This document shows positions 40,388 through 57,558 of a stretch of DNA of 64,000 nt, one piece after another (position 1 is the first letter of the stretch; each line of letters opens with the position of its first letter). This DNA comes from Dactylosporangium siamense (GTDB lineage: Bacteria > Actinomycetota > Actinomycetes > Mycobacteriales > Micromonosporaceae), in NCBI RefSeq assembly GCF_016862795.1, contig NZ_BONQ01000055.1, positions 1 to 64,000 of the forward strand. Reading direction: 5' to 3'. Under the pieces are notes generated by a model, which was given only the letters and a program-made list of their open reading frames with translations, did not search any database and was not told the origin of the DNA. Position numbers and translations under genes: made by a program.

Positions 40388-42424
40388 TTACAGGGTGGTC
40401 TCGCCGGTGAGGCCGAAGAAGTCGTGCCATTTGGCGCCGCCGAGGAAGCCGGTGCCGGTGGACAGCCCGACGTAGACGTCGTTGGTGGCGGCCTTGGTGA
40501 AGACGATGATGTCGTCCTTGCCGTCGCCGTTGACGTCACCGAGGTACGGGAACTCCCCGGCGGTGCAGAAGAAGTCGTTCCACTTCACCGTGGTGCCGAC
40601 GAACGCGGTACCGGTGGACACGGCGGCGTAGACGTCGGCGTCGGCGTTGCAGGTGAACGTGACGATGTCGGCCTTGCCGTCGCCGTTGACGTCACCGACC
40701 CGCGGCTGCTCGCTGCCGACGGCGAACAGGTCGTGCCATTTGAGCGGGGCGCCGAAGCCGGCGCCGGTGGACAGCGCGACGATCACGTCGGCCGCGGTCG
40801 TAGGGCCTTGGGTGAAGGTGATGATGTCGGCCTTGCCGTCGCCGTCGACGTCACCGACCGCCGGGTACTCGCCCGGGATCGAGAAGTACTCGTGCCACTT
40901 CACGCCGGGCCCGAACGACGTACCGGTGGACAACGCCACGTACACGTCGGCGGCGGCGTCGTGGGTGAACGTGATGATGTCATCGCGACCGTCGCCGTTG
41001 ACGTCGCCGACCGCTGGGACCTCCGCGCCCGGGGCGAACCAGTCGTGCCACTTCGCGCCGCCGGCGAACGAGGTGCCGTTCGACAACCCGACGTACACGT
41101 CGCCGAGGGTGCCGCCGGTGAACACGACGATGTCGTCCTTGCCGTCGCCGTTGAAGTCGCCGGTCAACGGGGTTTCCCCCGTCAGGCCGAAGAAGTCGTT
41201 CCACTTCACCGACGTGCCGGCGAACGCGGTGCCGGTCGAGGTCGAGACGTAGACGTCGTTGAGGCTGCCCTGGTTGAACGTGACGATGTCGTCCTTGCCG
41301 TCACCGGTGAAGTCAGTGGGTGAACCGGCGTAGTACCTGCCGCCCGTACCCCCGCCGCCGCCCGCGTTGACCAGGGAGATGTAGTAGTTCCAGTTCCAGT
41401 TGGGACCGGGGTCCGTGTGGTCGTTGCCGGGGATCTCGTTGTGCCCCTTGATCCCGGTCCGGTTCTTCGGGATGCCGTACTTGTCGCAGAGGTAGCGGGT
41501 CAGGGCCGCCGACGAGCGGTACATCGCGTCGGTGAACCAGGCCGGGTTGTCGACGTAGCCCTCGTGCTCGATGCCGACGCCGTACGCGTTGGCGGAGCGG
41601 GCGTGGTATGCGGTGTCGCCCTCCCGGACCATCTGCGTGATCTCGCCGTTGCTGGACTTGACCACGTAGTGCGCGCTGACCCCGGCGGACGGGTTCTGGA
41701 ACCAGTTGACCGTGCCGGCGTAGGAGCCCTGGGTCACGTGGATGACGACGGTGGTGATCCGGCTGGACCGCCCCGCGCCGTAGTTGGCGCCGTTGGCGGC
41801 GACCCAGCGGGCCGGGCCGTACTCCGGGACCGCGGCGGCGAGCGAGGAGCCCCCGGTCGGCGCGGTCGAGGCATAGCGGCCTAGCTCCGGCGCCACGGAA
41901 CGGCCCACAACAGCGCCCGGAATCCCTTGCCGCAGAATGTCGTAAACGTTGTCGGCGTAGAGGCGGGCGGTGGCGTCGTCGACGGACGCGCTGTATCGCG
42001 CGACGACCGGGTACCACGCGCCGATCCGGCCGCGATCGCCCGCTTTCAGGCCCGCGGCGTCGGCGAGGTCGCGCAGGACCGCCGCGCCGCCGCGGATGTT
42101 GGCCGGTGTGTCCGATCGCAGCGCGGCCGCGGGCACGCCGGTGAGGGTCGCGGCGCGTTCCAGGCTGTGGTTGGTGGGGTTGCTGGCCAGGTGCATCACG
42201 CCGAACCCGTTGGCCTGGCTCGGTTTGCCGCCGTGCGCGTCGAGGCGGGTCTCGCCGTAGCCGACCGCGACGAGCAGGTCCCGCGGCACGCCGGACTCGG
42301 CGGCCGCCTTGGCGAAGGCCGCGTTCAGGCCGTCGACGGGCGCGGCGTGGGCGGTGGCCGCGGATCCCGCGACGAGCACACCGGCGAGCAGGACGACGGC
42401 GCCGCGGCGCCACCAGTTGGCCAT
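40388..42424 (-). CDS. Secreted SLT-like/amidase_2 peptidoglycan hydrolase with FG-GAP module
   Basis: 678 residues from ATG 42424 (GGGAGA site). Signal peptide 1-27. Residues about 30-170 resemble a lytic-transglycosylase (SLT) fold with Glu58 in G-Y-G-E-T-R-L-D and G-F-G-V-M-H-L. Residues 222-350 are an N-acetylmuramoyl-L-alanine amidase_2 domain, with Zn ligands probably His229 (V-V-I-H-V-T-Q) and His336 (G-N-D-H-T-D-P-G). After a Gly linker, residues about 370-678 hold six FG-GAP/VCBS repeats, each with the Ca-binding D-x-N-x-D-G-x-x-D. It should cut peptidoglycan outside the cell. It follows the lysozyme-like FG-GAP gene by 29 bp and shares its operator at 43933. Confidence 0.9.
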   Translation of the reverse strand: MANWWRRGAVVLLAGVLVAGSAATAHAAPVDGLNAAFAKAAAESGVPRDLLVAVGYGETRLDAHGGKPSQANGFGVMHLASNPTNHSLERAATLTGVPAAALRSDTPANIRGGAAVLRDLADAAGLKAGDRGRIGAWYPVVARYSASVDDATARLYADNVYDILRQGIPGAVVGRSVAPELGRYASTAPTGGSSLAAAVPEYGPARWVAANGANYGAGRSSRITTVVIHVTQGSYAGTVNWFQNPSAGVSAHYVVKSSNGEITQMVREGDTAYHARSANAYGVGIEHEGYVDNPAWFTDAMYRSSAALTRYLCDKYGIPKNRTGIKGHNEIPGNDHTDPGPNWNWNYYISLVNAGGGGGTGGRYYAGSPTDFTGDGKDDIVTFNQGSLNDVYVSTSTGTAFAGTSVKWNDFFGLTGETPLTGDFNGDGKDDIVVFTGGTLGDVYVGLSNGTSFAGGAKWHDWFAPGAEVPAVGDVNGDGRDDIITFTHDAAADVYVALSTGTSFGPGVKWHEYFSIPGEYPAVGDVDGDGKADIITFTQGPTTAADVIVALSTGAGFGAPLKWHDLFAVGSEQPRVGDVNGDGKADIVTFTCNADADVYAAVSTGTAFVGTTVKWNDFFCTAGEFPYLGDVNGDGKDDIIVFTKAATNDVYVGLSTGTGFLGGAKWHDFFGLTGETTL

Positions 42425-42453
42425 GGGGGTCTCCCATCGGAGGTGCGGAGGTT

Positions 42454-43914
42454 TCACAGCGTCGCCTCGCCGTTGAGGCCGAAGAAGTCGTGCCACTTGG
42501 CGCCGCCGAGGAAGCCGGTGCCGGTGGAGATGCCGACGTACACGTCGTTGGTGGCGCCCTTGGTGAACACGACGATGTCGTCCTTACCGTCGCCGTTGGC
42601 GTCGGCGAGATACGGGAACTCCCCCGCGGTGCAGAAGAAGTCGTTCCACTTCACTGTGGTGCCGACGAACGCGGCGCCGTTGGACACCGCGGCGTAGACG
42701 TCGGCGTTGGCGTCGCAGGTGAAGGTGACGATGTCGGCCTTGCCGTCGCCGTTGACGTCGCCGACCCGGGGCAGCTCGGTGCCGACCGCGAACAGGTCGT
42801 GCCACTTCAGGCCGGGCCCGAACGACGTGCCCGTGGACAGCGCGACGATCACGTCCGCCGCCGACGCCGACCCCTGGGTGAAGGTGATGAGGTCGGCCCT
42901 GCCGTCGCCGTTGACGTCGCCGACCGCCGGGTACTCGCCGGACGGCGCGAAGAACTCGTGCCACTTCTGTCCGGGGCCGAACGACGTGCCGGTGGACAGC
43001 GCGACATAGACATCACCGGACGGGTTGTGGGTGAACGCGACGATGTCGTCCTTACCGTCGCCGTTGACGTCGCCGACGGCACCGATCTCGGCGCCGGGGG
43101 CGAACCAGTCGTGCCACTTCGCGCCGCCGGCGAACGACGTGCCGGTGGACAGGCCCACGTACACGTCGCCGGTGTTGCTGTGCGCGAACGTGATGATGTC
43201 GTCCTTGCCGTCGCCGTTGACGTCGCCGGTGGTGGCCGTCTCGCCGCCGATGGAGAAGAAGTCGTTCCACTTCACCGAGGTGCCGGCGAACGCGGTGCCG
43301 GTGGAGGTGCTGACGTAGACGTCGGCGAGCGCGTTCTGGGTGAACGTGAGGATGTCGTCCCTGCCGTCGCCGTTGACGTCGGTGGGCGAGCCGCCGGCGA
43401 TGGCCGCGGTGCGCGCGGCCTCGTTGAGCAGGGTCCGGGCCTTCGCGGCGACCTGGTCGTAGCGGTCGGGGAAGCCGGAGCGCTGCACGCACTGGGCGAC
43501 CTGGCCGGCGCTGTAGCCGGGGTTGTTGCGGTCGCAGGTGATCGCGCGGGTGACGTACTGCGTCGACGCGTACACCGGGTCCATGATCTGTTCCTGGGTG
43601 CCCCAGCCGTAGTCCCAGCGTTGCTGGAACACGCCGAGGGAGGTCTTGTCGCCGCACGGCAGGTTGTTCAGGTGCGACTCGACCCAGCCGGCCTCGAACG
43701 CCGACAGCGTCACCTTGTCGTTGGCGTTGAAGTTGCGGGCGACGCGGTAGACGATCGTGGTGACGGCCGGGTCGTGCCCGGCCGGGATCGACGGGCAGGC
43801 GGCCAGGGTGACGGCCGGCATGTCCGATGTGGACGCCGACGCTGGGGCTGTGGGCGCCACGGCGGCGACGGTCGCGCAGAGCGCGGCCACCAGCGCCAGG
43901 GGGATGCGTCTCAC
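42454..43914 (-). CDS. Secreted lysozyme-like protein with six-repeat FG-GAP module
   Basis: 486 residues from GTG 43914, with GAGGAG upstream. The longer frame to 43962 would include the operator. Signal peptide 1-28. Residues about 48-165 form a transglycosylase-like domain (A-F-E-A-G-W-V-E-S-H-L-N-N-L with Glu74/Glu79, then S-L-G-V-F-Q-Q-R-W-D-Y-G-W-G-T). Residues about 176-486 are six FG-GAP repeats that match the amidase module repeat by repeat, so the whole module was duplicated. Operator GAGAAATCGATTGCTG at 43933-43948 and a promoter at 43981 lie upstream. Likely an extracellular peptidoglycan-active enzyme or binder. Confidence 0.87.
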   Translation of the reverse strand: MRRIPLALVAALCATVAAVAPTAPASASTSDMPAVTLAACPSIPAGHDPAVTTIVYRVARNFNANDKVTLSAFEAGWVESHLNNLPCGDKTSLGVFQQRWDYGWGTQEQIMDPVYASTQYVTRAITCDRNNPGYSAGQVAQCVQRSGFPDRYDQVAAKARTLLNEAARTAAIAGGSPTDVNGDGRDDILTFTQNALADVYVSTSTGTAFAGTSVKWNDFFSIGGETATTGDVNGDGKDDIITFAHSNTGDVYVGLSTGTSFAGGAKWHDWFAPGAEIGAVGDVNGDGKDDIVAFTHNPSGDVYVALSTGTSFGPGQKWHEFFAPSGEYPAVGDVNGDGRADLITFTQGSASAADVIVALSTGTSFGPGLKWHDLFAVGTELPRVGDVNGDGKADIVTFTCDANADVYAAVSNGAAFVGTTVKWNDFFCTAGEFPYLADANGDGKDDIVVFTKGATNDVYVGISTGTGFLGGAKWHDFFGLNGEATL

Positions 43915-43932
43915 GGGGGCTCCTCGGATGCC

Positions 43933-43948
43933 GAGAAATCGATTGCTG
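43933..43948. promoter_or_regulatory. Arabinan-locus operator, copy 1 (GAGAAATCGATTGCTG)
   Basis: Core AATCGATT is palindromic, and the 16-mer is identical to the copy at 53211-53226. It lies between a candidate -35 TTGACA (minus strand, 43981-43976) with -10 GACACT (18-bp spacer) and the start of the lysozyme-like gene. Likely bound by the LacI-family protein encoded at 53449. Confidence 0.75.
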
Positions 43949-44058
43949 CTGAGTGTCCGCACTCAGCACCATCGATGTCAATGGATCCGCTGAAGGAAAG
44001 CTTCATTCACCTCAGTGGATCCGGCAGGAAGCCACAGGTACCGGCACGCAGGCACGAC

Positions 44059-44098
44059 GCATCGCCCGGCGCGCTGGAACGACGGCGCCGGGCGATGC
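44059..44098 (-). terminator. Terminator of the sugar ABC operon
   Basis: GCATCGCCCGGCGC and GCGCCGGGCGATGC make a perfect 14-bp stem with a 12-nt loop, 10 nt after the binding-protein stop (44109). Confidence 0.78.
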
Positions 44099-44108
44099 GA
44101 TGCGCGGG

Positions 44109-45104
44109 TCAGGAGCCGCCGAGCTTGGTGTACACCTCGGCCGCGTTGTCCTTGGTGATCTGCTGGGTGCCGAGGGTCGTGCTGCGCGGCACGTCCTTGC
44201 CGCAGTCGACCAGGATCTTCTTGGCCAGGTCGATCGCCTCGCGGCCGCCGGTGGCGTACTGGAACGTCGCCGAGAGCCGGCCCTGCTCGACCGCCTTGAT
44301 ACCGCCGGACGGCACGGGCAGCGCGTCGATACCGGTGAACTTGATCTTCGTCTCGAGTCCGGCCGCCTTGGCCGCGAGGTAGGCGCCCTCGGCCATCGGG
44401 TCGTTGTGCGCGTAGACGGCGGCGACGTCCGGGTGCGCCTTGAGCAGCGCGTCGGCCACCGACTGGCCCTTCTCCCGCAGCCAGTCACCGGGCTGCGACG
44501 CCACGATCTCGATCTTCGGGTTGCCGGCGATGCCGGCCCGGAAGCCGTCCGCCCGTTCCTTCGCCGGGGTGGAGCCCGGCAGGCCGGCGATCTCGATCAC
44601 CTTGCCGCCGCTGGGCAGCAGGGTCTTGGCGTAGTACTCGCCGGCGGCCTTGCCGATCGCGACGTTGTCGCCGCCGATGAACGCGGTGTACGCGTCGCCC
44701 TCGACCTTGCGGTCCAGCACGATGACCGGGATCTTCTGGTCGTAGGCCTTCTTGACGACCGCGGTGAGCGGCTTCGCCTCGTTGGGCGAGATGATCAGCA
44801 GGTTGATCTTCTGGGTGAGGAAGCTCTCGACGTCGGCGACCTGCTTGCTGTTGTCCTGCGCGGCGTCGGAGACGACCACCTTGAAGCCCGGGACCGCCTT
44901 CGCCGCGGCCGTCACGTCGTTGTTCATGACCTGGCGGTAGGGCTCGGCGTTGTTCGCCTGCGACATGCCGATGAGGAACTCCTTGCCGGTGCCGCAGGCG
45001 GCGCCCGCGGCGTCGCCCGCCTGCTCGGACGGCTTCTCGACGCTGCACGCGGTCGTGATGAGCACGCAGGCGAGCACGACGAACGTGCTGATGCGATGAC
45101 GCAT
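44109..45104 (-). CDS. Pentose/ribose-type ABC transporter binding lipoprotein (RbsB-like)
   Basis: 331 residues from ATG 45104 (CAGGAG site). Lipoprotein signal with lipobox I-T-T-A-C and Cys20. The mature part is a family-4 periplasmic-binding fold typical of monosaccharide importers (I-G-M-S-Q-A-N-N-A-E-P-Y, I-N-L-L-I-I-S-P-N-E-A, V-Y-A-H-N-D-P-M-A-E-G). It is the last gene of an ATPase-permease-binding protein operon under the GAAATCGATTTC operator at 47765, and should supply the sugar handled by the neighbouring kinase and isomerase, proposed as D-arabinose. Confidence 0.92.
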   Translation of the reverse strand: MRHRISTFVVLACVLITTACSVEKPSEQAGDAAGAACGTGKEFLIGMSQANNAEPYRQVMNNDVTAAAKAVPGFKVVVSDAAQDNSKQVADVESFLTQKINLLIISPNEAKPLTAVVKKAYDQKIPVIVLDRKVEGDAYTAFIGGDNVAIGKAAGEYYAKTLLPSGGKVIEIAGLPGSTPAKERADGFRAGIAGNPKIEIVASQPGDWLREKGQSVADALLKAHPDVAAVYAHNDPMAEGAYLAAKAAGLETKIKFTGIDALPVPSGGIKAVEQGRLSATFQYATGGREAIDLAKKILVDCGKDVPRSTTLGTQQITKDNAAEVYTKLGGS

Positions 45105-45138: not shown

Positions 45139-46203
45139 TCAGGCGACGGTGCGGTGCAGCTTCTGCAGGGCGGCGGCGGCCACGATGACCAGGCCCTTGA
45201 TGAGCAGCTGCACATTGGCGTCGATGTTGTTGAGCGCGAGGATGTTGTTGAGGATGCCCAGCAGCAGCGCGCCGGCCAGGGTGCCGCCCATGGACCCGGA
45301 GCCGCCGGACAGTGCGGTGCCGCCGATCACCACCGCGGCGATGGCGTCGAGCTCGTATCCGGCACCGTCGTTGGGGCTGCCCTGGTTGAGCTGGCCCGCG
45401 TGGACGACCCCGGCCACCGCCGCGAGGAGCCCGGCGATGGCGAACACGGCGACCTTGACCCGGGTGACCGGTACACCCGAGAGACGGGCCGCCTTCTCGT
45501 TGCCGCCGATCGCGTACACGTGCCGCGCGAACGCGGTGGTGCGCAGCACGACGATGGCGGCCACACCGATGGCGAGGAACAGCACGGCCGGCACCGGCAC
45601 CACGCCGTTGAACGAGCCGTTGAGGATCTCGAAGGCGGGCGGTGCCTCCTTGGGCCCGTCGCCGTAGGCGATCGGGATGCCGAGCCCGCCGGACCAGATG
45701 CGGGCCAGCCCGCGGGCGACCTGGAGCCCGGCGAGGGTGACGATGAACGACTGGATGCCCAGCCGGGCCGTCGCGTAGCCCTGCAGGGCGCCGAAGGCCG
45801 CGCCGATCGCGAGCACCGCGAGGACCGACGGCAGGATGCCGAGCCCGGAGTCGACCATCAGCGTGGCGGTGCCGACCGCCGACAGGCCGAGGATCGCGCC
45901 GACGGACAGGTCGATGCCGCCGAGCAGGACCACGAACGTCATGCCGACGGCGATGATGCCGATCTCGGACACCGCCCGCACGATGTTGCCGAGGTTGCCG
46001 GTCGACAGGAAGAGGTTTTCGCCGTTGCGGGTCGGCGACGCCGCGATCGCGACAGCGAACACGACGGCGAGGGCAAAGAGGCTCTGCACCGCGAAGAGCC
46101 GGTCGATCAGCTCCCGCCGGCTGCGCGGCCGGCGCAGCCAGCACGCCGCGGAGGCCTTGAGCCCGACGGTGCCGGCGGCCGGGGTCTGCTCGTCGATGGT
46201 CAC
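45139..46203 (-). CDS. Monosaccharide ABC transporter permease (RbsC-like)
   Basis: 354 residues from GTG 46203, which overlaps the ATPase stop by 4 nt (GTGA). Eight to ten membrane segments. The family signature G-G-I-D-L-S-V-G-A-I-L-G-L lies near residue 95, and G-G-T-A-L-S-G-G-S-G-S-M-G-G-T near the C-terminus is typical of RbsC/XylH permeases. An N-terminal cytosolic stretch of about 35 residues precedes the first helix. Confidence 0.92.
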   Translation of the reverse strand: MTIDEQTPAAGTVGLKASAACWLRRPRSRRELIDRLFAVQSLFALAVVFAVAIAASPTRNGENLFLSTGNLGNIVRAVSEIGIIAVGMTFVVLLGGIDLSVGAILGLSAVGTATLMVDSGLGILPSVLAVLAIGAAFGALQGYATARLGIQSFIVTLAGLQVARGLARIWSGGLGIPIAYGDGPKEAPPAFEILNGSFNGVVPVPAVLFLAIGVAAIVVLRTTAFARHVYAIGGNEKAARLSGVPVTRVKVAVFAIAGLLAAVAGVVHAGQLNQGSPNDGAGYELDAIAAVVIGGTALSGGSGSMGGTLAGALLLGILNNILALNNIDANVQLLIKGLVIVAAAALQKLHRTVA

Positions 46204-47744
46204 GCTGACTCCCTCGTGGGACGGCTGTGCTGGCCCATGGCGGCGGCGAGGATGCCCGCCGCGTCGGTGGTGGCGGCGGGCAGGTCGGCGACGGTCCGGC
46301 CGGCCCGCAGCACGACGATGCGGTCGCAGACACCCAGGGGCTCCGGCAGCTCGGAGGAGGCGAGCAGGATGCCCATGCCGTCGTCGGCGAGACGGTGCAG
46401 GAGCCGGTAGATCTCGGCCTTGGCGCCGATGTCGACGCCGCGGGTCGGCTCGTCGAGCAGCAGCAGGCGCGGCCCGGCGAGGAGCTGGCGGGCGAACACG
46501 ACCTTCTGCTGGTTGCCGCCGGACAGCGCGCCGACGGGCACGTTGGCCGACGGGGTCTTGATGGCCAGCTCGGCGATCTTCCCGGCGACGGCGGCACGTT
46601 CCCGCCGGCGCCGGACGATGCCGGCGGTGGTGAGGCGGTGCAGGGCGGTGAGCACGATGCTGCGGCCGGTGGCGTGCCCGAGCACGAGCGCGGAGCCCCG
46701 GCGGTCCTCGGGCACGAACCCGACGCCCCGGCGCAGGGCCTGGCGTGGTGCCGCCGGCGCGTAGGCCACGCCGTCGAGGCGGACCGATCCGCTGCGGCGG
46801 CCCTTGGCGCCCGCCCCGAACAGCGTCTCCAGCAGCTCGGTGCGGCCCGCGCCCATCAGCCCGGCGAGGCCGACGATCTCCCCCGCCCGCACCGTCAGCG
46901 TGGCCCCGGCCGGCTCGCACCGCCCGGGCCGGCGGTGCCTGGGCCGGACCGTGAGGTCGTCGACCTCCAGCAGCGGCGCTCCCGTCTTGGCGTTCGCCGA
47001 GCCGAAGAGCGTCTCCACCGACCGGCCGACCATCAGCGAGATGATCTCGCCGGGGCCGGCGGTGCGCGGGTCGACGGTGCCGGCGACCCCACCGTTGCGC
47101 AGCACCGTCGCCCGGTCGGCGATCGCCTCGATCTCCTCCATGCGGTGGGAGATGTAGACGATGCCGACGCCGCGGCGGCGCAGCTCCTCGATGGTGGCGA
47201 AGAGGCGCCGCACCTCCGCGTCCGCCAGAGCCGCCGTCGGCTCGTCCATGACGAGGACCCGCGCGTCGAGCGACAGCGCCCTGGCGATCTCGACCAGCTG
47301 CTGCTCGCCGACGCGCAGGGCGCCGACCGGGCGGCGCGGGTCGAGGTCGACACCGAGCTGCCGCAGCTGCTCCCGGGCGGTGCGCAGCATCGCCCGGCGG
47401 TCCAGCAGCCGGAGCCTGGTGCGGGGTTCGCGGCCCAGCACCAGGTTCTCCGCCACGGAGAGGCCCGGCACGAGGTCGAGCTCCTGGTGGATGGTGGCGA
47501 TCCCGGCCGCCTGCGCGTCGGCCGGGCGGTGGAACCGCACCGGCGTCCCCGCGACCGTGATCTCGCCGTCGTGGTCGGTGACGACGCCGGACAGCACGTT
47601 CATGAGCGTCGACTTGCCCGCACCGTTCTCGCCGAGCAACGCGTGGACCTCGCCGGCCCGGATCGTGAAGTCGACGTCGCGGCAGGCGACCACGCCGCCG
47701 AACTGCTTCGTGATGCCGGTCATCGTGACAAGCGCCTCGCTCAT
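46200..47744 (-). CDS. Monosaccharide ABC transporter ATPase, double NBD (RbsA-like)
   Basis: 514 residues from ATG 47744. A GTG three codons upstream is the alternative. The first nucleotide-binding domain has Walker A G-E-N-G-A-G-K-S-T near 37-45 and signature L-R-V-G-E-Q-Q-L-V. The second carries the degenerate G-L-M-G-A-G-R-T-E-L and the intact signature G-A-L-S-G-G-N-Q-Q-K, exactly as in RbsA/XylG/AraG proteins. It energises uptake of a monosaccharide. It heads the operon, immediately after a promoter with a perfect 18-bp operator. Confidence 0.93.
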   Translation of the reverse strand: MSEALVTMTGITKQFGGVVACRDVDFTIRAGEVHALLGENGAGKSTLMNVLSGVVTDHDGEITVAGTPVRFHRPADAQAAGIATIHQELDLVPGLSVAENLVLGREPRTRLRLLDRRAMLRTAREQLRQLGVDLDPRRPVGALRVGEQQLVEIARALSLDARVLVMDEPTAALADAEVRRLFATIEELRRRGVGIVYISHRMEEIEAIADRATVLRNGGVAGTVDPRTAGPGEIISLMVGRSVETLFGSANAKTGAPLLEVDDLTVRPRHRRPGRCEPAGATLTVRAGEIVGLAGLMGAGRTELLETLFGAGAKGRRSGSVRLDGVAYAPAAPRQALRRGVGFVPEDRRGSALVLGHATGRSIVLTALHRLTTAGIVRRRRERAAVAGKIAELAIKTPSANVPVGALSGGNQQKVVFARQLLAGPRLLLLDEPTRGVDIGAKAEIYRLLHRLADDGMGILLASSELPEPLGVCDRIVVLRAGRTVADLPAATTDAAGILAAAMGQHSRPTRESA

Positions 47745-47764: not shown

Positions 47765-47782
47765 TGAGAAATCGATTTCTCA
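47765..47782. promoter_or_regulatory. Arabinan-locus operator, copy 2 (perfect 18-bp palindrome)
   Basis: TGAGAAATCGATTTCTCA is fully symmetric and is the best copy of the motif. It lies just downstream of the -10 element of the ABC operon promoter, ideal for repression. Confidence 0.85.
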
Positions 47783-47858: not shown

Positions 47859-49982
47859 TCACGGGATCGCATTGATCGCGGACCACACGGTGCCGGCGAA
47901 TGCCACGTCCCGGCGCACCCCGCTGGACGCGATCCGCCACGTCCCGCCCGGATACTGGCCGGGCGCCCACGCGACGCCGCCGTTGCGCCACAGCGGCTGC
48001 CACGCCGCCATCGCGTGCCCGGCGTCGTACCAGATGTTGTCGCCGCGCCACGCCGACGCCCAGCGGTGCGCCGACACCACCGACAGCCCGCCGGCCTCCG
48101 CCGAGGACAGCATCGACCACGCCGGCATCCCGGTGACGTCCCCGGTCGGTCGCGCCTCCGTGGCCGGGTCGCCGACCATCGGCAGCGCGCCGTCGACGTT
48201 GAACGCGACCTCCCACACGCCGGCCGTCGGCCACCCGTTGACGGACCAGACGACGTCGCTCTGCAGCGCCGGTCCCGTCCATCGGGGCACCACGGAGATG
48301 AGCCAGTCGGCGGTGACCGGTTCGTTGCCGAACGGGATGCCGGCGAGGTTGATCCGGGTCCCGTCCGCGGACACGTCCACTCTGGACGGTGCACCGGCCG
48401 GGTCGGTCACCCCGAACCCACCGACCGCCAGGTAGGGCCCGGTGCCGCGGTAGGACGAGTCGAGCGCCGGCCGGTAGGCGCCGCCGCCCGCCGGGTCGAC
48501 GCCGAGCGAGGCGATCCGCGCGGACGGCCAGGTCCGGATGTCGGCGCGCAGGTAGCCGGTGCTGACCACCCGCCCCCGCGCCACGACCCCGGAGGTCCAC
48601 TGCAGCGGGGCGAGCCACAGCCCGCCCATCCCCCAACCGGCGTGGCTGAGGTACCAGTTCGACCCGTCGACGATCACCTCGGCGGCGTGGGCGTCCAGGA
48701 CCGCGACCTTCTCCGCCCCGTCGAACTGGAAGGGGTCGCGGCTGCGGTAGACGGCGGTGCGCCGGTACGCGGCGCCGTAGTCGGTGCCGTCGCAGCAGAC
48801 GAAGAGGTACCACCATTCGCCGCGCCGCACCACGAACGGCGACTCGGTCTGCCCGGCCGCCTGCCCGGTGTACGGCGACGTGAACGCGGTCCGCCGGGCG
48901 CTCCACGTGGTCAGGTCGGTGCTGGTGCGGTACCCGACGATGTGGTTGCCGCCGTTCGGGGCGGTGGTGGCGGTGTAGTACATGACCCACTGCTCGCCGA
49001 CCCGGGTGACCATCGGGTCCCGCGCCTCCCAGCCGTCGGTGAACAGCGGGTTGGCCGGGCTGCGCGTCCACGTGACCAGATCCGTCGACGTGGCGAGGTG
49101 CATCCGGTAGCGGGTGTAGTCCGGGTTCCCGGCCGCGTAGAACATGAAGTAGACGCCGTTGTCGTGGATGACGTGCGGGGCCCAGATCCACTGCTCCCCC
49201 GCCGCCGGGGACGCCGTGAGGGCGGCCGGCTGTTTCGTCCAGGGCCCGTTCGGGGTGGGCGCGGTGGCGTGCGCGAACAGCGTCTCCTGCAGCGGTGCGC
49301 CCGGCTCGGCGTGGGTGATGCCGAACGCGTGCCACACGCCGGTGCCGCGGTGCTGCACGATGGTGTGGTCGTTGAGGTACCACGCGGCGGATTCGCCCAC
49401 GCTCGGGTCGTACACGCGAGTGAGGGTGCCGCGCGACGGTGTCTCCGCCACGGTTTCATACGTCGACGTGGTGACCGTCGCCAGCGCACCGACCCGTTGC
49501 AGGGTGATCGTGTCGAGGCCGGCGAAGAACCCGGTCGATGCCGGGTTCCGGCCGGTGACCGTCACGGTGAGCCGGTGCGTGCCGGCCGCGAGGGCGACCG
49601 AGCCGAGCGGGACCGCGCCGGTGCGCTGCACCGCCGTGGCGTAGCCGTCGAAGAGCTGACCGATCGCGACCCCGTCGACGGCGAAGCGCAGCGTCCCGTA
49701 GTCGGCCGCCTTCGTCAGGATCCCGCCCAGGTCGTACTGGCCGGGCGTCACCGCGGGCAGCGTGACGGTGACGGAGTCACCGGCGTGGGCGGCCCGCAAC
49801 CACAGCTGCCGCCCGCCGGACCAGGCGACGCCGCAGCAGTTCGGCTGCGACTCCACCGGAGCGGTCGACGACACGGCGGGCAGCAGGCCTTCCGCCTCGA
49901 GGGTGACCGGCGTGTCCGCGGCGAACGCGGGGGCGGGCCCTGCCAGGATCAGCAGGGCCGCCACCAGTGCGATGGCTCTCAC
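47859..49982 (-). CDS. Secreted GH43-like beta-propeller glycosidase with N-terminal sugar-binding domain
   Basis: 707 residues from GTG 49982, overlapping the GH172 gene stop by 4 nt. Signal peptide 1-22. Residues about 25-165 are a jelly-roll carbohydrate-binding-like domain. Residues about 175-500 show the five-bladed GH32/43/68-type propeller, with acidic residues in W-E-A-R-D-P-M-V (Asp) and T-E-S-P-F-V-V-R (Glu) in the expected order. The C-terminal 200 residues form another beta domain. It should hydrolyse a furanosyl or pyranosyl linkage outside the cell. In context an arabinofuranosidase is most likely; GH43 versus a neighbouring family is not certain. Confidence 0.78.
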
Positions 49983-52900
49983 GGCGCGCTCGGCCTGACG
50001 ACCGTGGACGCGCCACCGCCGAAGGTGTCGTGCCACTTCCAGGCGTTCTGCACGAACCGGCCGCCGTCGGACAGCGACACGAACGCGTCGGCCGCCGGGT
50101 CACCGGTGAACGTGACGATGTCGGCCCGGCCGTCGCCGTCGAAGTCGCCGACACCCGGCCGCTCGGCGTTGATGGCGAAGTTGTCGTGCCACTTCACGGG
50201 CGTGCCGAAGCCCGTGCCACTCGACAACGCGACGAACACGTCGGCGGTGCTGCCACGGGTGAAGGCCACCAGGTCGTCGCGACCGTCGCCGTTGACGTCG
50301 CCGGTCGACACCACGTCACCGCCGAAGCCGGACCGCCACAGCCAGCCGTCGCCGACGAACCGGCCGCCGTCGGACAGCGCCACGTAGAAGCTGCCGCCGG
50401 TGCCGCCGGTGAAGGTCGCGATGTCGTCGCGGCCGTCGCCGTCGAAGTCGCCGACGAGCGGCGTCTCGGTGCCGATGGCGAACCGGTCGTGCCACCTGAT
50501 GCCGGGTCCGAAGCCGCTGCCGGTCGACAGCGCCACGTACACGTCCGCGTTGGCGCCGCGGGTGAAGGTGATGATGTCGGTGCGGCCGTCGCCGTCGACG
50601 TCCCCGACGAGCGGCACCTCCGCGTCGACGGCGAAGAAGTCGTGCCACTTGGCGCCGCCGCCGAAGCCGCCGCTGCCGTTGCCGAGCGCCACGTAGACGT
50701 CGGCGAGCGACCCCCGGGTGAAGGTGATGAGGTCGGTCCGGCCGTCGCCGTTGACGTCGCCGGTGAACGGCACCTCGCCGTCGATGGCGAAGAAGTCGTT
50801 GCCCTTCACCGACGCCCCGAACGACGTGCCGGTCGAGGTGGCACTGAACACGTCCGAGTCGGCGCCGCGGGTGAACGCGACCGCGTCGTCGCGGCCGTCG
50901 CCGTTGACGTCGCTGACGACCCGGCCGCGGACGCTGCCGGACACGACCCCGGAGGCGGGCCCGGCGTTGCCCGCGGCGTCGACCGCGACCACCCGGTAGT
51001 ACCAGGTCTGCCCGATCGGCAGCGGACCGTGCCGGAAGCCGGTGCCGGCGACGGTGCCGCGCAGGTTCGCCGCGGTGACCGGCACGGACGAGTTCGTCGA
51101 GCCGTAGACGCGGTAGCTGGTGACGCCCACGTTGTCGCTCGCCTCGCTCCAGGTGAGCCCGATCGCGTGGGTGCGCCCGCCGGTGACGGCGAGTCCGGTG
51201 ACCGCGCCGGGCGCGGTGGTGTCCAGGTACGGCGCGACCATGCTCGACGCCGTGTAGCGCGACGCCGTCCACGCGCCGCCGACCGGGGTGAGCGTGACCG
51301 TCACCGCCGACTTGCCGGCGGTGAGCGCGGCGGGCAGCGTGAACTCGTCGGTGAGCCAGCGCTGGATCTCGTTGCCGAGCGGCTGCAGCCAGGTGCCGGC
51401 GCTCACCCCGTCGACGGCGACCGCCGCCTGCTGGTAGGCGCGTTGCTGGTCGCCGGTGCGGCGCAGCCGGACCCCGGAGTTGCCCGGTTCGACCGCGACC
51501 CGGAAGGAGATCGCCGAGGTGCCGGAGCGGACCTGGCCGGTGCTGGACACGTCGTCGTTGTCACCTTCGAAGACGGAGGTCAGCTGGTACTGCGTGGCGG
51601 CACCGTCGGCGTAGCCGTGGGCGCTGCGGCTGGCGGCGTCGCCCGTCAGCACCGTGTCGGTCTGGCGGACCGCGGCGGTCGGCTGGGTGTAGAGGAACGC
51701 GGTCGAGGCGTAGTCGGCCGGTTCGTTGGCGGTCGGCCCGTGCTCGATGCCGAACCGCAGGCCGCTGGTGTAGGCGACGGCGTCGCCGAGCATGAGCCGG
51801 TAGGCGGCGTCGCACTCGTCGGCGCAGCCCCCGGTGCGGAACCGGTGCCCGGTGTTGCCGGTGAAGACGCCCGAGTACTCGCCGCGGTTGAAGTACCAGC
51901 CGGACTCGTAGAAGTCCTCGGTGCCGGTGCCGTACCACTGTGGGCTGGAAGCGCCGTCGACGTGGATGCGTTCGTCGCCCTCGAGGTAGTTGCGGGTGTT
52001 GCCGCCGGTGATGTGCGCCCGCATGGTCTGCGACACCCCGACGAGGCGGCCCCGGCCGGCCTGGTCGGCCATGATCCAGTCCTTGCCGGCGACGGTCTCG
52101 GCGCGGCGCGACTGGGTGGTGAAGTAGCCGACGTCGCTGGACCAGGTGGTGGGCGCGGACGTCACCTCGGCCTGGATGCCGCCGATCGACGCGCCGCCGG
52201 TGTTGGCGATCGCGACGGTGGCGTTGGCGCCGAACGGCATCGGCCACCAGGCGCTGTACCAGCCGCCGGGTGCGGCGTCCATGGCGAACATGAGCGAACG
52301 CACGGTCCGCTCGCCGAGCCCGGCGCCGAAGAACTCCGCCACGGGGGCGTCGACGGTGGTGCGGCCGTCGAACGTGATCCGCAGCCGCAGCGCGGTGAGG
52401 GTCGCCTCGGTGGCGGCGCCGTCGGGGATGCGCAGCCGCAGCGCGCTGATCGCCCGCGGCCCGCTCAGCGCGGCCAGGGTGGCCTGCCCGCCAGCCGGGG
52501 CGGTGACGGTCGCGGTGGCGGTGGTGGCGCCGGCCTGGGGCGGTTTCGGGTCGCGCAGGCCCGCCTGGCGGAGGTTGTCGACGACGTCGAGGGCCTGGTC
52601 GGCGGGGTTGAAGCGGGTGATGCCGTTCGCGTCGGCGAAGGTGCGGTAGCCGACGTGGTAGAAGAGCGGGTTGTTCTGGGTGACGATCCGCATGCTGGTG
52701 CGGTACGGCATCGGCACCTTGACCGTGACACCGCCGGAGGTCTGGTCGGCGTTGGTCACCAGGGGCCAGACGAACGGGGCGCCGAGGTTGCCGTTGACGA
52801 GGTTCTGCAGGCCGGTGTTGACGACGGTGACGCCGTCGAGCTCGACGCGGATCCAGCCGGTGGCACTGACGTCGCCGTTGTCGCGGGTGAACCAGATCGA

Positions 52901-53194
52901 CTGGATCTCGCCGGCGCCGCGGTCCTCGGCGATCGTGCAGCCGCCGTCGGTGCGCAGGCACGAGTAGGTGCCGCCGAAGCCGTCGTCGTTGGAGCCGTCG
53001 CGGCCGAAGCCGGAGAACTGTTTCGTCCGGGTGCCGGCGGACAGCGTCGGCAGCCGGTCGAGGCGCCGGTAGGTGTCCCAGCCGACCGGTCCCTTGTCGT
53101 CCGGCACCGCCGCGCCTGCGGGCGCGGGGGCGGCGACGGCCATGAGCAGCGGGAGCAGCAGGGCCGCGACGACGGTTCTTCGCAACAGGCGCAT
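49979..53194 (-). CDS. Secreted GH172 (DUF2961) enzyme with FN3 and FG-GAP modules
   Basis: 1071 residues from ATG 53194 (GGAAGGGA site). Signal peptide 1-28. Residues about 32-510 form the DUF2961/GH172 domain, with the near-invariant Y-G-T-G-T-E-D-F-Y at about 421-429 (Glu426) and [12 protein letters not shown] earlier. GH172 enzymes act on furanosides: difructose anhydride or D-arabinofuranosyl chains. Residues about 515-655 are a beta domain, about 660-750 a fibronectin III module and about 758-1071 six FG-GAP repeats, related to those of the two peptidoglycan hydrolases. First gene of an operon with the GH43-like enzyme, under the operator at 53211. Confidence 0.85.
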
Positions 53195-53210: not shown

Positions 53211-53226
53211 GAGAAATCGATTGCTG
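53211..53226. promoter_or_regulatory. Arabinan-locus operator, copy 3 (GAGAAATCGATTGCTG)
   Basis: Identical 16-mer to copy 1 at 43933. It lies directly downstream of a candidate promoter for the GH172 operon. Confidence 0.78.
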
Positions 53227-53228
53227 CC

Positions 53229-53257
53229 AGTAGACGACTTACATACGCCTGCGTCAA
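53229..53257 (-). promoter_or_regulatory. Promoter of the GH172-GH43 operon
   Basis: Minus strand -35 TTGACG (53257-53252), 17-bp spacer, -10 TCTACT (53234-53229). The operator at 53211-53226 begins 3 bp after the -10, the same layout as in the ABC operon. Confidence 0.6.
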
Positions 53258-53348
53258 TATGTCAGAAGCTTACGATCGGTCAGGGCGGCCGGCCCGCCTC
53301 GAGCGCCGGCGGCACGGCGGTCGGCGCGCCCGTCGCCAACCACGGGGC

Positions 53349-53360
53349 GAAATCGATTTC
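53349..53360. promoter_or_regulatory. Arabinan-locus operator, copy 4 (GAAATCGATTTC)
   Basis: Perfect 12-bp palindrome 88 bp upstream of the LacI-family start codon, suggesting autoregulation. Confidence 0.78.
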
Positions 53361-53448
53361 CGGCCACACCGGGCGGCCCGTCACCGGTAGGCACGACCGT
53401 CCGGCGTGGCATTATTGCGCTCCGGAGATGTCGGGAAGGATTGGGATC

Positions 53449-54444
53449 ATGGCGACCATCTACGACGTCGCGCAGCGCGCACAGGTCTCCCCGGCCACCG
53501 TCTCCCGGGTGCTCAACGGGCGGTCCAGCGTCGACCCCGACATGGCCACCCGGGTCCAGGAGGCGGTCCGCGAGCTGGACTACCGCCCCAATTCCGTGGC
53601 GCGCAACCTGCGCCGCAGCCGCACCACGCTGTGGGCGGTGATCATCTCCGACGTCGGCAACCCCTTCTTCACCGCGATGGTGCGCGGCGTCGAGGACGTC
53701 GGCCAGCGGGCCGGCTACTCGGTCGTGCTGTGCAACAGCGACGAGGACCCGGCCAAGGAGGCGCAGTACGTCACCGCCGCCCTGCAGGACCAGATGGCCG
53801 GGGTCATCATCTCCAGCTCCGGCGACCCGGCCAACGTGCGGCGGCTGATCGAGGCCGGCACGCCGGTCGTGGCGATCGACCGGCAGGTCAGCGGGGCCAA
53901 CATCGACAGCGTCCTGGTCGACAACGAGCACGGCGCGCACATGGCCACCGAGCACCTCATCGAGGGCGGGTACCACCGCATCGCCTGCATCACGGGACCC
54001 CGCAAGGTGTCCACGGCCGCGCAGCGGCTGCGCGGCTACCAGCAGGCGTTGAAGGCGCACGGCTTCGGCGCACCGGCGCGGCTGGTGCGCTACTCCGACT
54101 ACCGCGAGGAGGGCGGCTACGCCGCGATGGCGTCACTGCTGGACGCGGGTGACCCACCGGACGCGGTCTTCGCCGCCAACAACCTCATGACCGTCGGCGC
54201 GCTCGAGTGCCTGGTCGACCGGGGCATCACGGTGCCCGCCGGGATCGGCGTCATCGGCTTCGACGAGATCCCGTGGGCGCACCTGGTCCGGCCCTCGCTG
54301 TCGACGGTCTCGCAACCGACCTACGAGCTGGGCCGGACCGCGGCGATGCTCCTCGCGGAGCGGATCACCGAGCCGGACCGGCCCCCGTCGACCGTCACCC
54401 TGCAGACGACGCTCAAGGTCCGCGAGAGCAGCCTCAGATCTTGA
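53449..54444 (+). CDS. LacI-family regulator, proposed master of the 40-58 kb regulon
   Basis: 331 residues from ATG 53449, with GGAAGGA upstream; an ATG at 53428 is weaker. HTH and hinge are residues 2-60 (T-I-Y-D-V-A-Q-R-A-Q-V-S-P-A-T-V-S-R-V-L-N-G and Y-R-P-N-S-V-A-R-N-L-R). The effector domain begins at V-I-I-S-D-V-G-N-P-F-F and contains F-A-A-N-N-L-M-T and G-F-D-E-I-P-W. It sits between the GH172 and isomerase operons and has the shared palindrome in front of it. Likely inducer is a pentose or arabinan fragment (inferred). Confidence 0.92.
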   Translation: MATIYDVAQRAQVSPATVSRVLNGRSSVDPDMATRVQEAVRELDYRPNSVARNLRRSRTTLWAVIISDVGNPFFTAMVRGVEDVGQRAGYSVVLCNSDEDPAKEAQYVTAALQDQMAGVIISSSGDPANVRRLIEAGTPVVAIDRQVSGANIDSVLVDNEHGAHMATEHLIEGGYHRIACITGPRKVSTAAQRLRGYQQALKAHGFGAPARLVRYSDYREEGGYAAMASLLDAGDPPDAVFAANNLMTVGALECLVDRGITVPAGIGVIGFDEIPWAHLVRPSLSTVSQPTYELGRTAAMLLAERITEPDRPPSTVTLQTTLKVRESSLRS

Positions 54445-56074
54445 CGTCGCCGCACAGGTGCACGACGACCCCGAGCTCGTGGAACAGCGCCGCCTTCGCC
54501 AGCAGGGCACGGTCGGCGGCCCCGGCGTCCGGGGCGTAGGCGACCTGCACGTGGTTGGCCTTGTGCCGGGCCATCAGCTGGTCGCGGCCCACGCCGTGCA
54601 GCACCGCGTGCATGATCGGCCACTGCCGGTCGGTCGCGTCGAGCCGGCGCTGGGACTCCTGCGCCGGCAGGCCGCGCACGGTGGCCCGGCCCAGGTCGAC
54701 GTGCAGCACGGCATCCATGATGAACACCCGCGACCACACGATCTCGCCCGGTTTCGACACTCCGCTCAGCGTGCCGCCGCCCAGGGGGAAGAACATCGGC
54801 GGCTGCCGCATGCTGTAGCTCTTGTCGTAGCCGCCGTTGTGCGAGGCGGGCACGGAGCCGGAGATCTCGAAGACCCAGACGAACTCGCCCTCGTAGTCCG
54901 CACCCCACCGGATGTCGTGCAGCGTGGTCGCCGGGTCGAAGCCCATCGCGTTCCACAACCGGTTGGTGACCAGCGCGTCGACGGCCACGCCCTCATCGAC
55001 CTCGTTGAAGTGTGGCAGCGGGGCGCCGGCGTAGAGCTCCCGGCCGCCGTCGCGGCTGCGCACGGGCGGGCGCTCCACGTTGTTCAGCAGGCCCTCGGCC
55101 AGGTCGCTGGCCGGCACCACGTCCTTGAGGCCCTGCTGGTACTGGATGCCGACCGCGTCGAGCCCGAAGTCGTCGCTGATCCGCAGCGCCGCGATGTACA
55201 TCTTGAACTGGCTCGTTGTCTGCGCCTCGGTGAGCTCGCCGGCCTCGTCGGTGCCGAAGTGGAACGTGAAGCCGCGCTCGTCCAGCCACGCCTTGACCGC
55301 CGCCGCCTCCTCGTCGGTCACCTTGAGCATCTCCGCGACCAGGGCGCTCTGCGACAGCCGCTCCTTGAAGATGCCGAGGGGGTTGAGCAGCTCGTCGTCG
55401 AAGATGGCGTTGTACATGCCCATGCAGCCCTCGTCGAAGACGCCGATGACGGCCTTCTCGTCGCGCAGCTGCCGGGCCAGCGCGGTGCCGAGCACCACCT
55501 CGGGCTCGGATTCGTCCAGCGGCGGCAGGTCCCGCACGTGCGACAGGTCGTGCTCCACGGTGCCGGTGTCCAGCCAGCGGCGCAGCCCGTCCACGGCCCA
55601 GTCGTCGGTGAAGTCCTCGCTCCACAGCGCGGAATGCCCGACGCCGGCCTTGGTGAGGCTGGCGGTGAGGTTGAGCAGGCCGACCAGGCCGGGGAACGCG
55701 CCGGACCAGTTCGCCACGACGAGGATCGGGCCCTCGTGGGTGCGCAGCCCCGCCAGGACGTGGTGGCTGTACTGCCAGACCGCCTCGACGACGATGAGCG
55801 GCGCGTCGCGCGGGATGGTCTTGAACACCTCGATGCCCATGCGCTGGCTGTCGATGAACCCGTGCTGCTTCGCCGGGTCGAACGCGTGCGTGCGGCTGGC
55901 GCTCCAGCCGAGCCGTCCGAGCGCCGCGGTCACGTCGGCCTCCAGCTGCTGCTGGGTGGGCCAGCAGCGGATGTTCGCGCTCGGCCGCAGGTCGCCGCTG
56001 ACCACCAGGTACGCGGTGGCGGGCTCGGCGGCCGGGCGCCGCAGCGGCACCGGGAGCTGATACGGACTCGTCAT
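54434..56074 (-). CDS. L-fucose/D-arabinose isomerase-like enzyme
   Basis: 546 residues from ATG 56074 (GGAGGAA site), overlapping the kinase stop by 4 nt. The fold and length match the FucI/AraA-like ketol-isomerase group, in which fucose isomerases also accept D-arabinose. Notable segments are F-D-E-G-C-M-G-M-Y-N, W-S-G-A-F-P-G-L-V-G and, near the C-terminus, V-H-L-C-G-D-V-K-I. Metal ligands cannot be assigned with confidence because similarity is distant. Expected reaction: D-arabinose to D-ribulose (or a 6-deoxy sugar equivalent). Its 3' end overlaps the convergent LacI gene by 11 bp. Confidence 0.75.
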   Translation of the reverse strand: MTSPYQLPVPLRRPAAEPATAYLVVSGDLRPSANIRCWPTQQQLEADVTAALGRLGWSASRTHAFDPAKQHGFIDSQRMGIEVFKTIPRDAPLIVVEAVWQYSHHVLAGLRTHEGPILVVANWSGAFPGLVGLLNLTASLTKAGVGHSALWSEDFTDDWAVDGLRRWLDTGTVEHDLSHVRDLPPLDESEPEVVLGTALARQLRDEKAVIGVFDEGCMGMYNAIFDDELLNPLGIFKERLSQSALVAEMLKVTDEEAAAVKAWLDERGFTFHFGTDEAGELTEAQTTSQFKMYIAALRISDDFGLDAVGIQYQQGLKDVVPASDLAEGLLNNVERPPVRSRDGGRELYAGAPLPHFNEVDEGVAVDALVTNRLWNAMGFDPATTLHDIRWGADYEGEFVWVFEISGSVPASHNGGYDKSYSMRQPPMFFPLGGGTLSGVSKPGEIVWSRVFIMDAVLHVDLGRATVRGLPAQESQRRLDATDRQWPIMHAVLHGVGRDQLMARHKANHVQVAYAPDAGAADRALLAKAALFHELGVVVHLCGDVKI

Positions 56075-57558
56075 GGTTCCTCCGAAGGTGCGGGGGTGCT
56101 GGCCAGGGTGTGGGCGATGGCGGCGGTGGCCGGGTACAGGTCGAGGTACAGCCGGAACAGCCGCTCGTAGGTCTCGGCGGTGCGCGGGTCGGGCTGGACC
56201 GTCGCGACGTTCGGGTTCCAGCGGTCGATGTCCGCGGTCCGGGCCGCGAGATATGCGGCGCCGTAGCTCGCGCCGATGGTCTTCTCGGGCATCAGCTGCG
56301 CCATGCCGGTCACGTCCGACACGATCTGCGCCCACAGGCCGCCCTGGGTGCCGCCGCCGACCGCGACGATCCGCTCGATGCGCCCGCCGGCCCGCTCGAG
56401 CTCCTCGATGTTGTGGCGCACGCCGAACGCGGTGGCCTCCAGGACCGCCCGGTACAGGTCGCCGCGGGTGTGCCGCAGGGTCAGCCCGGCGATCACGCCG
56501 CGCGCGTCGGGGTCGGCGATCGGGGTGCGCTCGCCGGCGAAGTACGGCAGCATCAGCAGCCCGCGGGCGCCGGGCCCGGATGCGGCCGCCTCCTGGAGCA
56601 GCTGCGGATAGCCGGGCGCGCCGAGCAGGTCGTGCAGCCAGGTGGTGATCGCGCCGGACGTCGCCATGCCCGCGGCGAGGTTGCGGGTCCCGGGGAACGC
56701 ACCGGTCGTGCCCCACAGCACCGGCGAGGTGTTGCGCACCTCGGTGGTGTGCACCAGGAACATCGTCGTGCCGTACATGAGCATGAGGTCGCCGAGGCGT
56801 TGCGCGCCGACGCTCACCGCCTCGGTCCAGGCGTCGATCGTGCCGGCGACGACGGGCGTGCCGGCCGGCAGCCCGGTCTGCGCGGCGGCCACGGCGGTGA
56901 CGGTGCCGACGACGTCGGCGGGCCAGACCAGCGGCGGCAGTTCGAGCGGCCCGGCGAGGTCCGCGGCCCACGGCCGGTGCCAGTCCTGCGCGGCGGTGTC
57001 GTACATCGGGGTGCACTGGCTGGCCGAGTGCTGGTCCAGGTAGTAGGCGCCGGTGAGCTGCCAGCCGAGCCAGGTCGCCGGCATGAACAGGCGCCGGGCG
57101 CGGGCCCACTGGTCCGGCTCGTGCTCGGCGAGCCAGGCGAGCTTCGGCCCGACGCTCTGGGTGGACAGCGCGGAGCCGGTCCGTTCCCGGATCGGGCCGG
57201 CGCCGCCGAGCTGCGCGGTCAGCCGGGCGATCTGTGCGGTGGCGCGGGTGTCGACGCCGTACAGGATGCCGGGCCGCAACGGGGTGCCGGCCTCGTCGGT
57301 GATCACGACGCACGGGCCCATGCCGCTGACGCCGACCGCTGTGACTTCGCTGTGGGCCACGGACAGCAGCTCGCGGATGATGGAGACGGCCTCGTCCCAC
57401 CAGATCCCCGCGTCCATCTCGACGTGTCCCGGCCGCGGATGGCGCACCTCGTGGGCGCGGGTGGCGCTCGCCAGGATCGTGCCGTCCAGCGCGACGAGCA
57501 CCCCTTTCGTGCTCGAGGTGCCGACATCGATGCCCACGATCGTCGCCGTGTTCGACAT
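56071..57558 (-). CDS. FGGY-family sugar kinase (xylulokinase/ribulokinase-like)
   Basis: 495 residues. The N-terminal ATPase-like motif I-V-G-I-D-V-G-T-S-S-T-K-G-V-L is at about 7-21, with G-V-S-G-M-G-P near 78, the catalytic Asp probably in G-T-I-D-A-W-T-E-A near 238 and the second-domain V-G-G-G-T-Q-G-G-L-W-A-Q near 398. FGGY kinases phosphorylate ketoses or polyols. Coupled by a 4-nt overlap to the isomerase, it should phosphorylate that enzyme's ketose product, for example D-ribulose. The operator at 57574 lies 16 bp upstream of the start. Confidence 0.9.
   Translation of the reverse strand: MSNTATIVGIDVGTSSTKGVLVALDGTILASATRAHEVRHPRPGHVEMDAGIWWDEAVSIIRELLSVAHSEVTAVGVSGMGPCVVITDEAGTPLRPGILYGVDTRATAQIARLTAQLGGAGPIRERTGSALSTQSVGPKLAWLAEHEPDQWARARRLFMPATWLGWQLTGAYYLDQHSASQCTPMYDTAAQDWHRPWAADLAGPLELPPLVWPADVVGTVTAVAAAQTGLPAGTPVVAGTIDAWTEAVSVGAQRLGDLMLMYGTTMFLVHTTEVRNTSPVLWGTTGAFPGTRNLAAGMATSGAITTWLHDLLGAPGYPQLLQEAAASGPGARGLLMLPYFAGERTPIADPDARGVIAGLTLRHTRGDLYRAVLEATAFGVRHNIEELERAGGRIERIVAVGGGTQGGLWAQIVSDVTGMAQLMPEKTIGASYGAAYLAARTADIDRWNPNVATVQPDPRTAETYERLFRLYLDLYPATAAIAHTLASTPAPSEEP

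Follow-up and report, generated by a model that had tools for sequence, protein, structure and literature searches.

Do the genes at positions 40388-57558 of a 64,000-nucleotide stretch of Dactylosporangium siamense DNA (NZ_BONQ01000055.1, positions 1 to 64,000; hereafter the window) form a system for degrading the cell walls of mycolata and consuming their D-arabinose? This had been proposed in an initial annotation, which placed two secreted peptidoglycan hydrolases, a GH172 furanosidase, a GH43-like glycosidase, a monosaccharide importer, an isomerase and an FGGY kinase under one operator set. The window has a GC content of 72.5% and belongs to contig C55 of a 12.7-Mb genome that is 98.8% complete. 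With Pfam and NCBIfam profiles we found an Amidase_2 protein with FG-GAP repeats, a second FG-GAP protein, the importer, the GH43-like protein, a GH172 protein with FG-GAP repeats, a LacI-family regulator and the FGGY kinase; secretion was called from signal-like N-termini judged by eye. All the genes named in the annotation are present, but the N-terminal part of the second 'hydrolase' gave no Pfam match and only a marginal one to PDB 8b2h (E 0.003). Gene content, operator sharing, catalytic residues and conserved synteny were read directly from the DNA. They point to a LacI-repressed regulon that would digest the arabinogalactan-peptidoglycan wall of mycolata and use its D-arabinose, a reading to which we assign a probability of about 0.82.

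A shared operator on three contigs

The predicted operator is a palindrome, GAAATCGATT(T/G)C, and one copy is located upstream of each of five transcription units in the window (Table 1). At up to one mismatch, the window contains 10 strand matches, compared to 0.10 expected from 100 shuffles. The pattern was derived from the window itself, so that sites outside the window serve as the independent test. In the whole genome, we found eight exact sites, five in the window and three elsewhere (C50:184830, C50:186005 and C20:21210). The genes at the two C50 sites encode GH116, a LacI regulator and an importer (SBP_bac_8 and two permeases), followed by a further LacI regulator, a kinase and a second isomerase that is 71% identical to that of the window. 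GH116 is present as a single copy in the genome, 109 bp from an operator. The C20 site lies 47 bp before the gene of an M23 peptidase with an FG-GAP tail. The regulon covers three contigs and thereby adds a third peptidoglycan hydrolase and GH116, a family that has an exo-beta-D-arabinofuranosidase among its known members. The proposal of a shared operator set is upheld by the five sites, their excess over expectation and the three further sites at fitting genes, whereas the interval 40388-57558 is too narrow, because the regulon extends to two other contigs. Neither the 12-bp operator nor the coupling to peptidoglycan hydrolases was found in the literature searched, which included passages of PMC10509167. 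No paper containing both 'D-arabinan' and 'LacI' was found in a literature search whose coverage left out most subscription journals.

The operator in related genomes

We compared the isomerase loci of the best 80 of 594 matches. The operator was present at up to one mismatch in 69 of these loci, with 135 sites in total compared to 1.67 expected from first-order random sequences, and 42 of the 80 loci harbour at least one of GH183, GH116, GH172 and GH43-like. Furthermore, we surveyed 300 genomes of the family for the isomerase (threshold E 1e-100) and the exact operator, with counts tallied by hand. The isomerase was found in 51 genomes and the operator in 111. Genomes with the isomerase contained the operator in 44 of 51 cases, compared to 67 of 249 without it (Fisher odds ratio 17, p 2e-15; the genomes are related, so that p is not a true probability). 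The reversed pattern gave two sites in the same 300 genomes. One relative (L167) combines GH183, MalEFG, M23, GH43-like, isomerase, GH116, kinase and LacI genes within 20 kb.

Relation to known D-arabinan systems

The isomerase of Microbacterium arabinogalactanolyticum JCM9171 (L075) is 66% identical to the window isomerase. All four exact operator sites of that genome are located within 14 kb (C7:1112906-1126838), in a locus that holds GH183 genes, an ExoMA1-type GH172, GH116, a kinase and the isomerase. By its content, this locus matches the published D-arabinan locus, for which D-arabinose and an extract of mycobacterial walls are the reported inducers (PMC10509167). ExoMA1 has been described as an exo-alpha- and ExoMA2 as an exo-beta-D-arabinofuranosidase, while the isomerase and kinase were termed putative (PMC10509167). 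A term search of the text of PMC10509167 gave 0 occurrences of 'LacI', 'regulator' and 'peptidoglycan'.

The two systems have in common the operator, the homologous isomerase and kinase, GH172, an importer and GH116, the last being on another contig in D. siamense. PMC10509167 describes the M. arabinogalactanolyticum GH172 as lacking a signal sequence, assumes that the sugars enter the cell as oligosaccharides and assigns the endo cut to GH183. In D. siamense, on the other hand, GH172 is secreted and carries FG-GAP repeats, the cluster importer is of the monosaccharide type and no GH183 exceeds its cut-off; peptidoglycan hydrolases and the GH43-like enzyme are added. The system represents a variant form of the D-arabinan locus known from actinobacteria, with secreted furanosidases, monosaccharide import, peptidoglycan hydrolases and a divergent GH43-like protein. 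GH172 exo-D-arabinofuranosidases also occur in Dysgonomonas gadei PUL42 and in the GH172/DUF4185 system of Mycosynbacter amalyticus, and the authors tie these enzymes to predators of acid-fast bacteria (PMC10115798). Those systems belong to other bacterial groups and have other import systems, and in the passages of PMC10115798 consulted we found neither a shared operator nor co-regulated peptidoglycan hydrolases described.

GH172 and isomerase point to D-arabinose

The GH172 protein contains a DUF2961 domain (211.5 bits, cut-off 27), and its middle region resembles PDB 1k85 (E 1.1e-06), presumably an FnIII domain. Its specificity was judged by residue comparison with 7v1v and ExoMA1. Equivalents of alphaFFase1 Glu270 (EGD), Glu291 and Asp292 (GTGTED) and Trp298 are kept, and Trp267 is replaced by Asn. 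The catalytic residues of alphaFFase1 are an acid/base Glu and a nucleophile Glu (PMC8605356). Gly299 has been linked to tolerance of alpha-D-fructofuranose, and Asn253 of ExoMA1, at the same place, to specificity for alpha-D-arabinofuranose (PMC10509167). The window GH172 has Tyr at this position; among 54 distinct relatives we found 30 with Asn, 21 with Tyr (all of the secreted type), one with Cys and none with Gly, and two without the motif. This suggests that the enzyme would act on a D-arabinofuranoside rather than a fructofuranoside, Tyr itself not being proven to confer D-arabinofuranose specificity.

The FG-GAP tail of GH172 matches PDB 9oee (E 4.9e-10) and 8w20 (E 1.2e-06), chains named 'Secreted esterase'. 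We take these to be the lectin propellers of Streptomyces umbrella toxins, in which case the tail might serve in targeting surfaces.

The window isomerase stays below the cut-offs of the fucose isomerase profiles PF07881 (20.5 bits, cut-off 28) and PF02952 (14.9 bits, cut-off 29.3), whereas the 66% identical M. arabinogalactanolyticum homologue passes PF02952 at 37.5 bits. The AlphaFold2 model of the window isomerase (predicted local distance difference test score 90) was compared with known structures by Foldseek. The best match was the D-arabinose isomerase of B. pallidus (3a9r), followed by FucI and then AraA, with a best E of 3.9e-21. The first eight matches are D-arabinose or L-fucose isomerases, at 14-16% identity, a template modelling score of ~0.5 and a large overall root-mean-square deviation. 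The modelled fold thus marks the protein as a divergent FucI/AraA-fold member. The earlier assignment to the fucose/D-arabinose type is supported by this fold and by the homologue, but not by the protein's own profile scores. We predict that it is a D-arabinose isomerase and the FGGY kinase a D-ribulokinase. Use of L-arabinose or L-fucose is disfavoured, as both the operator and the sequence homology lead to loci for D-arabinan.

The GH43-like protein

The GH43-like protein scores 49.6 bits with PF04616 (cut-off 32.2), and the best stretch extends over no more than 62-218 of 288. Its NDH, RDP and ESPF acids (D, D and E) do not vary in any of 24 sequences, which include two pairs with identical cores; we presume roles as base Asp, pKa-modulating Asp and acid Glu, in GH32-like contexts. 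In the AlphaFold2 model, built from an alignment of only four rows, the propeller is confident and the C-terminal half unreliable. Among the 50 Foldseek matches listed, GH32, GH130, GH43 and GH117 structures ranked close to each other at 12-18% identity. With these families the protein has the five-bladed propeller and three presumed catalytic acids in common, but the matches listed single out no nearest family.

An N-terminal part resembling a carbohydrate-binding module (CBM) matches PDB 7ehg (E 1.6e-09). Of the more distant GH43-like loci, 13 were fetched, and in 11 of them GH172 carries this domain instead, a hint that the two enzymes may have a common polymer substrate. The GH43-like protein might be an endo-D-arabinanase acting on D-arabinan, at slightly under even odds, or, somewhat less probably, a galactofuranosidase acting on galactan; a GH43_31 is among the galactofuranosidases of PMC10115798. 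Full-length orthologues (73-79% identity) were found in seven other genomes of the 300. The idea that the GH43-like protein replaces GH183 is weakened, because one relative (G011) has both in one locus, although the 140 genomes with a GH183 match do not include G136, G218, G297 or G236.

A second, Micromonospora-type locus (L168-L174, L180) contains a CBM-bearing GH172, an importer and a CBM-less GH43-like protein of ~55% identity. These stretches hold no peptidoglycan hydrolases and no exact operators.

Peptidoglycan hydrolases

The 8b2h match of the muramidase-like protein is a single N-terminal stretch; 8b2h is presumably a GH184 muramidase (PMC10394673). The N-terminal region of the amidase, where no Pfam domain was found, weakly matches the lytic transglycosylase 9vi7 (E 0.021). 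The hydrolases show conserved synteny with the system in Micromonospora and other genera. Among the seven closest GH43-like loci (L161-L167), six hold at least one of the M23, muramidase-like and amidase genes, and in these six the operators sit in the promoter regions that separate hydrolase genes from GH or lacI genes. L166 has one site for the muramidase-like gene and one for GH172 (894 and 1059).

In addition, we searched 12 selected genomes for the catalytic region of M23. Ten contain a match of at least 73%, one per genome, while the others remain below 50%. An upstream site at up to one mismatch is present at nine of these ten orthologues. Four M23 genes stand alone in trans and have the operator 47-156 bp upstream (own genome, G128, G119 and G110); in G119 and G110 a secreted-type GH172, cut by the stretch end, adjoins M23 (L181 and L182). 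The peptidoglycan hydrolases look like genuine regulon members, because they occur in six of the seven closest loci and the operator, at up to one mismatch, precedes nine of the ten orthologous M23 genes. Between M23 and amidase the FG-GAP tails are 93% identical; the value is 81% between the muramidase-like protein and amidase, and ~49-56% between GH172 and the others. This likeness exists even though the M23 gene lies on another contig, and it speaks for a targeting module common to these proteins. The claim that wall lysis is joined to arabinan use gains support from the operators directly before the muramidase-like and M23 genes and from the synteny.

Alternative explanations

Several results weigh against the regulon described above. 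Membership of the second kinase/isomerase pair on C50 is less sure, as no site at up to two mismatches was found in the surrounding 19 kb (L095). None of GH183, GH116, GH172 and GH43-like was found in 38 of the 80 isomerase loci, with flanks of up to 10 kb. Because 67 genomes in which no isomerase reached E 1e-100 nevertheless carry the operator, it is not exclusive to the system. Isolated operators by seemingly unrelated genes in relatives (L123, site 10000; L125, site 9998, at a Gfo/Idh-like oxidoreductase judged by eye) suggest that the regulon has further members or that other LacI regulators recognise this site too. A GH183 search of the whole genome gave at best 37.9 bits (cut-off 39.5), in a sigma-factor-like protein, and thus no known endo-D-arabinanase. 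No Pfam domain was found in the muramidase-like protein within the 150 residues that follow the signal. The five clustered M23 genes have the operator 330-420 bp away, nearer to the divergent GH gene, and in G288 the M23 and amidase genes lie elsewhere, with no site at up to two mismatches in 7 kb (L183). Moreover, no peptidoglycan hydrolase genes were found in L164. Of 22 places with a more distant GH43-like domain, 13 were fetched (L168-L180), and 12 of these contain no such gene either, the exception being L176. The hydrolase coupling is not universal. These absences, and the description of the M. arabinogalactanolyticum locus without any such hydrolase in PMC10509167, would also fit a D-arabinose/D-arabinan regulon in which the hydrolases happen to lie nearby or act in the organism's own growth rather than on the walls of other bacteria. 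We consider this improbable, since two of the eight operators in the genome directly precede hydrolase genes (the muramidase-like gene at 21 bp, the M23 gene in trans at 47 bp), three more genomes have operators 122-156 bp before M23 genes in trans (L181, L182 and L184), and the FG-GAP tails are common to the proteins.

Arabinose is among the whole-cell sugars of Micromonosporaceae, so that the target could be an arabinose-containing polymer of the organism's own wall that is remodelled or recycled. A search confined to the Emb arabinosyltransferase family (PF04602) gave no match in the genome, with C. glutamicum as a positive control, which is why the target polymer is probably foreign. Importer, kinase and isomerase together suggest growth on the sugar, and an isomerase in 51 of 300 family genomes is too patchy for a core wall function; the own-wall explanation appears very improbable. 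Least credible is the use of fructan or difructose anhydride by a pair of GH172 and GH32/43-like enzymes. The GH43-like protein also matches GH32, and its RDP motif is presumably GH32-like. Fructose, however, requires neither an isomerase nor an FGGY kinase. The founding member of GH172 is a difructose dianhydride enzyme (PMC8605356), but Gly299 is Tyr in D. siamense and never Gly in the 52 distinct relatives with the motif, and the operator is that of the D-arabinan locus. A fructan system was rejected on the absence of Gly299 from the window GH172. The earlier preference for D-arabinose over fructose agrees with this residue, with the operator and with the homology of isomerase and kinase to those of the D-arabinan locus.

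Beside the GH183 search, we noted that a sigma-70 region 2 protein on contig C17 (L097:270-2321, minus strand) has a C-terminal part corresponding to half of DUF4185 (38.5 bits, below the cut-off). Such half-length DUF4185 matches in long frames are common in the family genomes.

Organisation of the cluster

The features of the cluster are listed in Table 1. The start of the GH43-like gene overlaps the GH172 stop, and the 3′ end of the kinase gene overlaps the isomerase start. Because of the start codons and these overlaps, we propose five transcription units: LYT-amidase, ATPase-permease-binding protein, GH172-GH43-like, lacI and kinase-isomerase.

Table 1. Genes and predicted operators of the cluster (window coordinates; ABC, ATP-binding cassette)
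Feature	Coordinates	Strand	Evidence
Secreted Amidase_2 (N-acetylmuramoyl-L-alanine amidase), FG-GAP tail	40388..42424	-	PF01510 E 2e-33, FG-GAP repeats
Secreted muramidase-like protein (LYT), FG-GAP tail	42454..43914	-	FG-GAP match; signal-like N-terminus from start 43914
Operator GAAATCGATTGC, unit LYT-amidase	43935..43946		Pattern search; 21 bp before LYT start
RbsB-type sugar-binding lipoprotein	44109..45104	-	PF13407 E 5.8e-51; best NCBIfam RbsB, below cut-off
Monosaccharide ABC permease	45139..46203	-	PF02653 E 5.6e-41
Monosaccharide ABC ATPase (double cassette)	46200..47744	-	PF00005 E 3.2e-50; xylose/arabinose/ribose-type below cut-offs
Operator GAAATCGATTTC, unit ATPase-permease-binding protein	47768..47779		24 bp before ATPase start
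Secreted GH43-like five-bladed propeller glycosidase, N-terminal CBM-like domain	47859..49982	-	PF04616 49.6 bits, PF00251 33.9 bits
Secreted GH172 (DUF2961), FG-GAP tail, predicted exo-alpha-D-arabinofuranosidase	49979..53194	-	PF11175 E 1.7e-62
Operator GAAATCGATTGC, unit GH172-GH43-like	53213..53224		19 bp before GH172 start
Operator GAAATCGATTTC, unit lacI	53349..53360		89 bp before lacI
LacI-family regulator	53449..54444	+	PF00356 E 7.6e-17, PF13377 E 5e-37
FucI/AraA-fold aldose-ketose isomerase, predicted D-arabinose isomerase	54434..56074	-	Homology, predicted fold
FGGY kinase, predicted D-ribulokinase	56071..57558	-	PF00370 E 1.5e-41, PF02782 E 1.2e-33; XylB-type below cut-off
Operator GAAATCGATTTC, unit kinase-isomerase	57574..57585		16 bp before kinase start

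Downstream, at 58193-60832 on the minus strand, lies a gene for an XFP xylulose-5-phosphate/fructose-6-phosphate phosphoketolase, which could receive pentose phosphate. It was left outside the system because it has no operator and a PNPOx-like gene on the plus strand (by eye) lies between.

Proposed mechanism and implications

From the sequence we infer the enzyme activities, transcription units, inducer and order of events as follows. The LacI repressor or repressors would probably be released by D-arabinose or D-ribulose. The secreted amidase, the muramidase-like enzyme and, in trans, the M23 enzyme would open the peptidoglycan, while the secreted GH172 would free alpha-D-arabinofuranose and the GH43-like enzyme would break a further furanoside linkage in the same polymer (D-arabinan, possibly galactan). 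Free D-arabinose would then be brought in by the RbsB-type importer. The isomerase would convert it to D-ribulose and the FGGY kinase to D-ribulose-5-phosphate, which would enter the pentose phosphate pathway. Under the same operator, the C50 locus would contribute a GH116 acting on beta-D-arabinofuranose, together with an oligosaccharide importer of the MalEFG type.

We hypothesise that this reflects a predatory or necrotrophic lifestyle. A bolder proposal is that D-arabinose acts as a prey signal, so that LacI co-expresses hydrolases and D-arabinosidases with one FG-GAP wall-targeting module, and that the GH43-like protein represents a new family of D-arabinan (or galactan) furanosidases standing in for GH183; this is tentative, and we would sooner expect it to fail than to hold. 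If the regulon is as described, wall lysis and the use of the wall sugar would be tied together in one regulon, and the operator would provide a regulatory signature by which D-arabinan degraders could be found across actinobacteria. The GH43-like propeller, the secreted GH172 and the three FG-GAP proteins would be candidate enzymes for an attack on the mycobacterial wall core.

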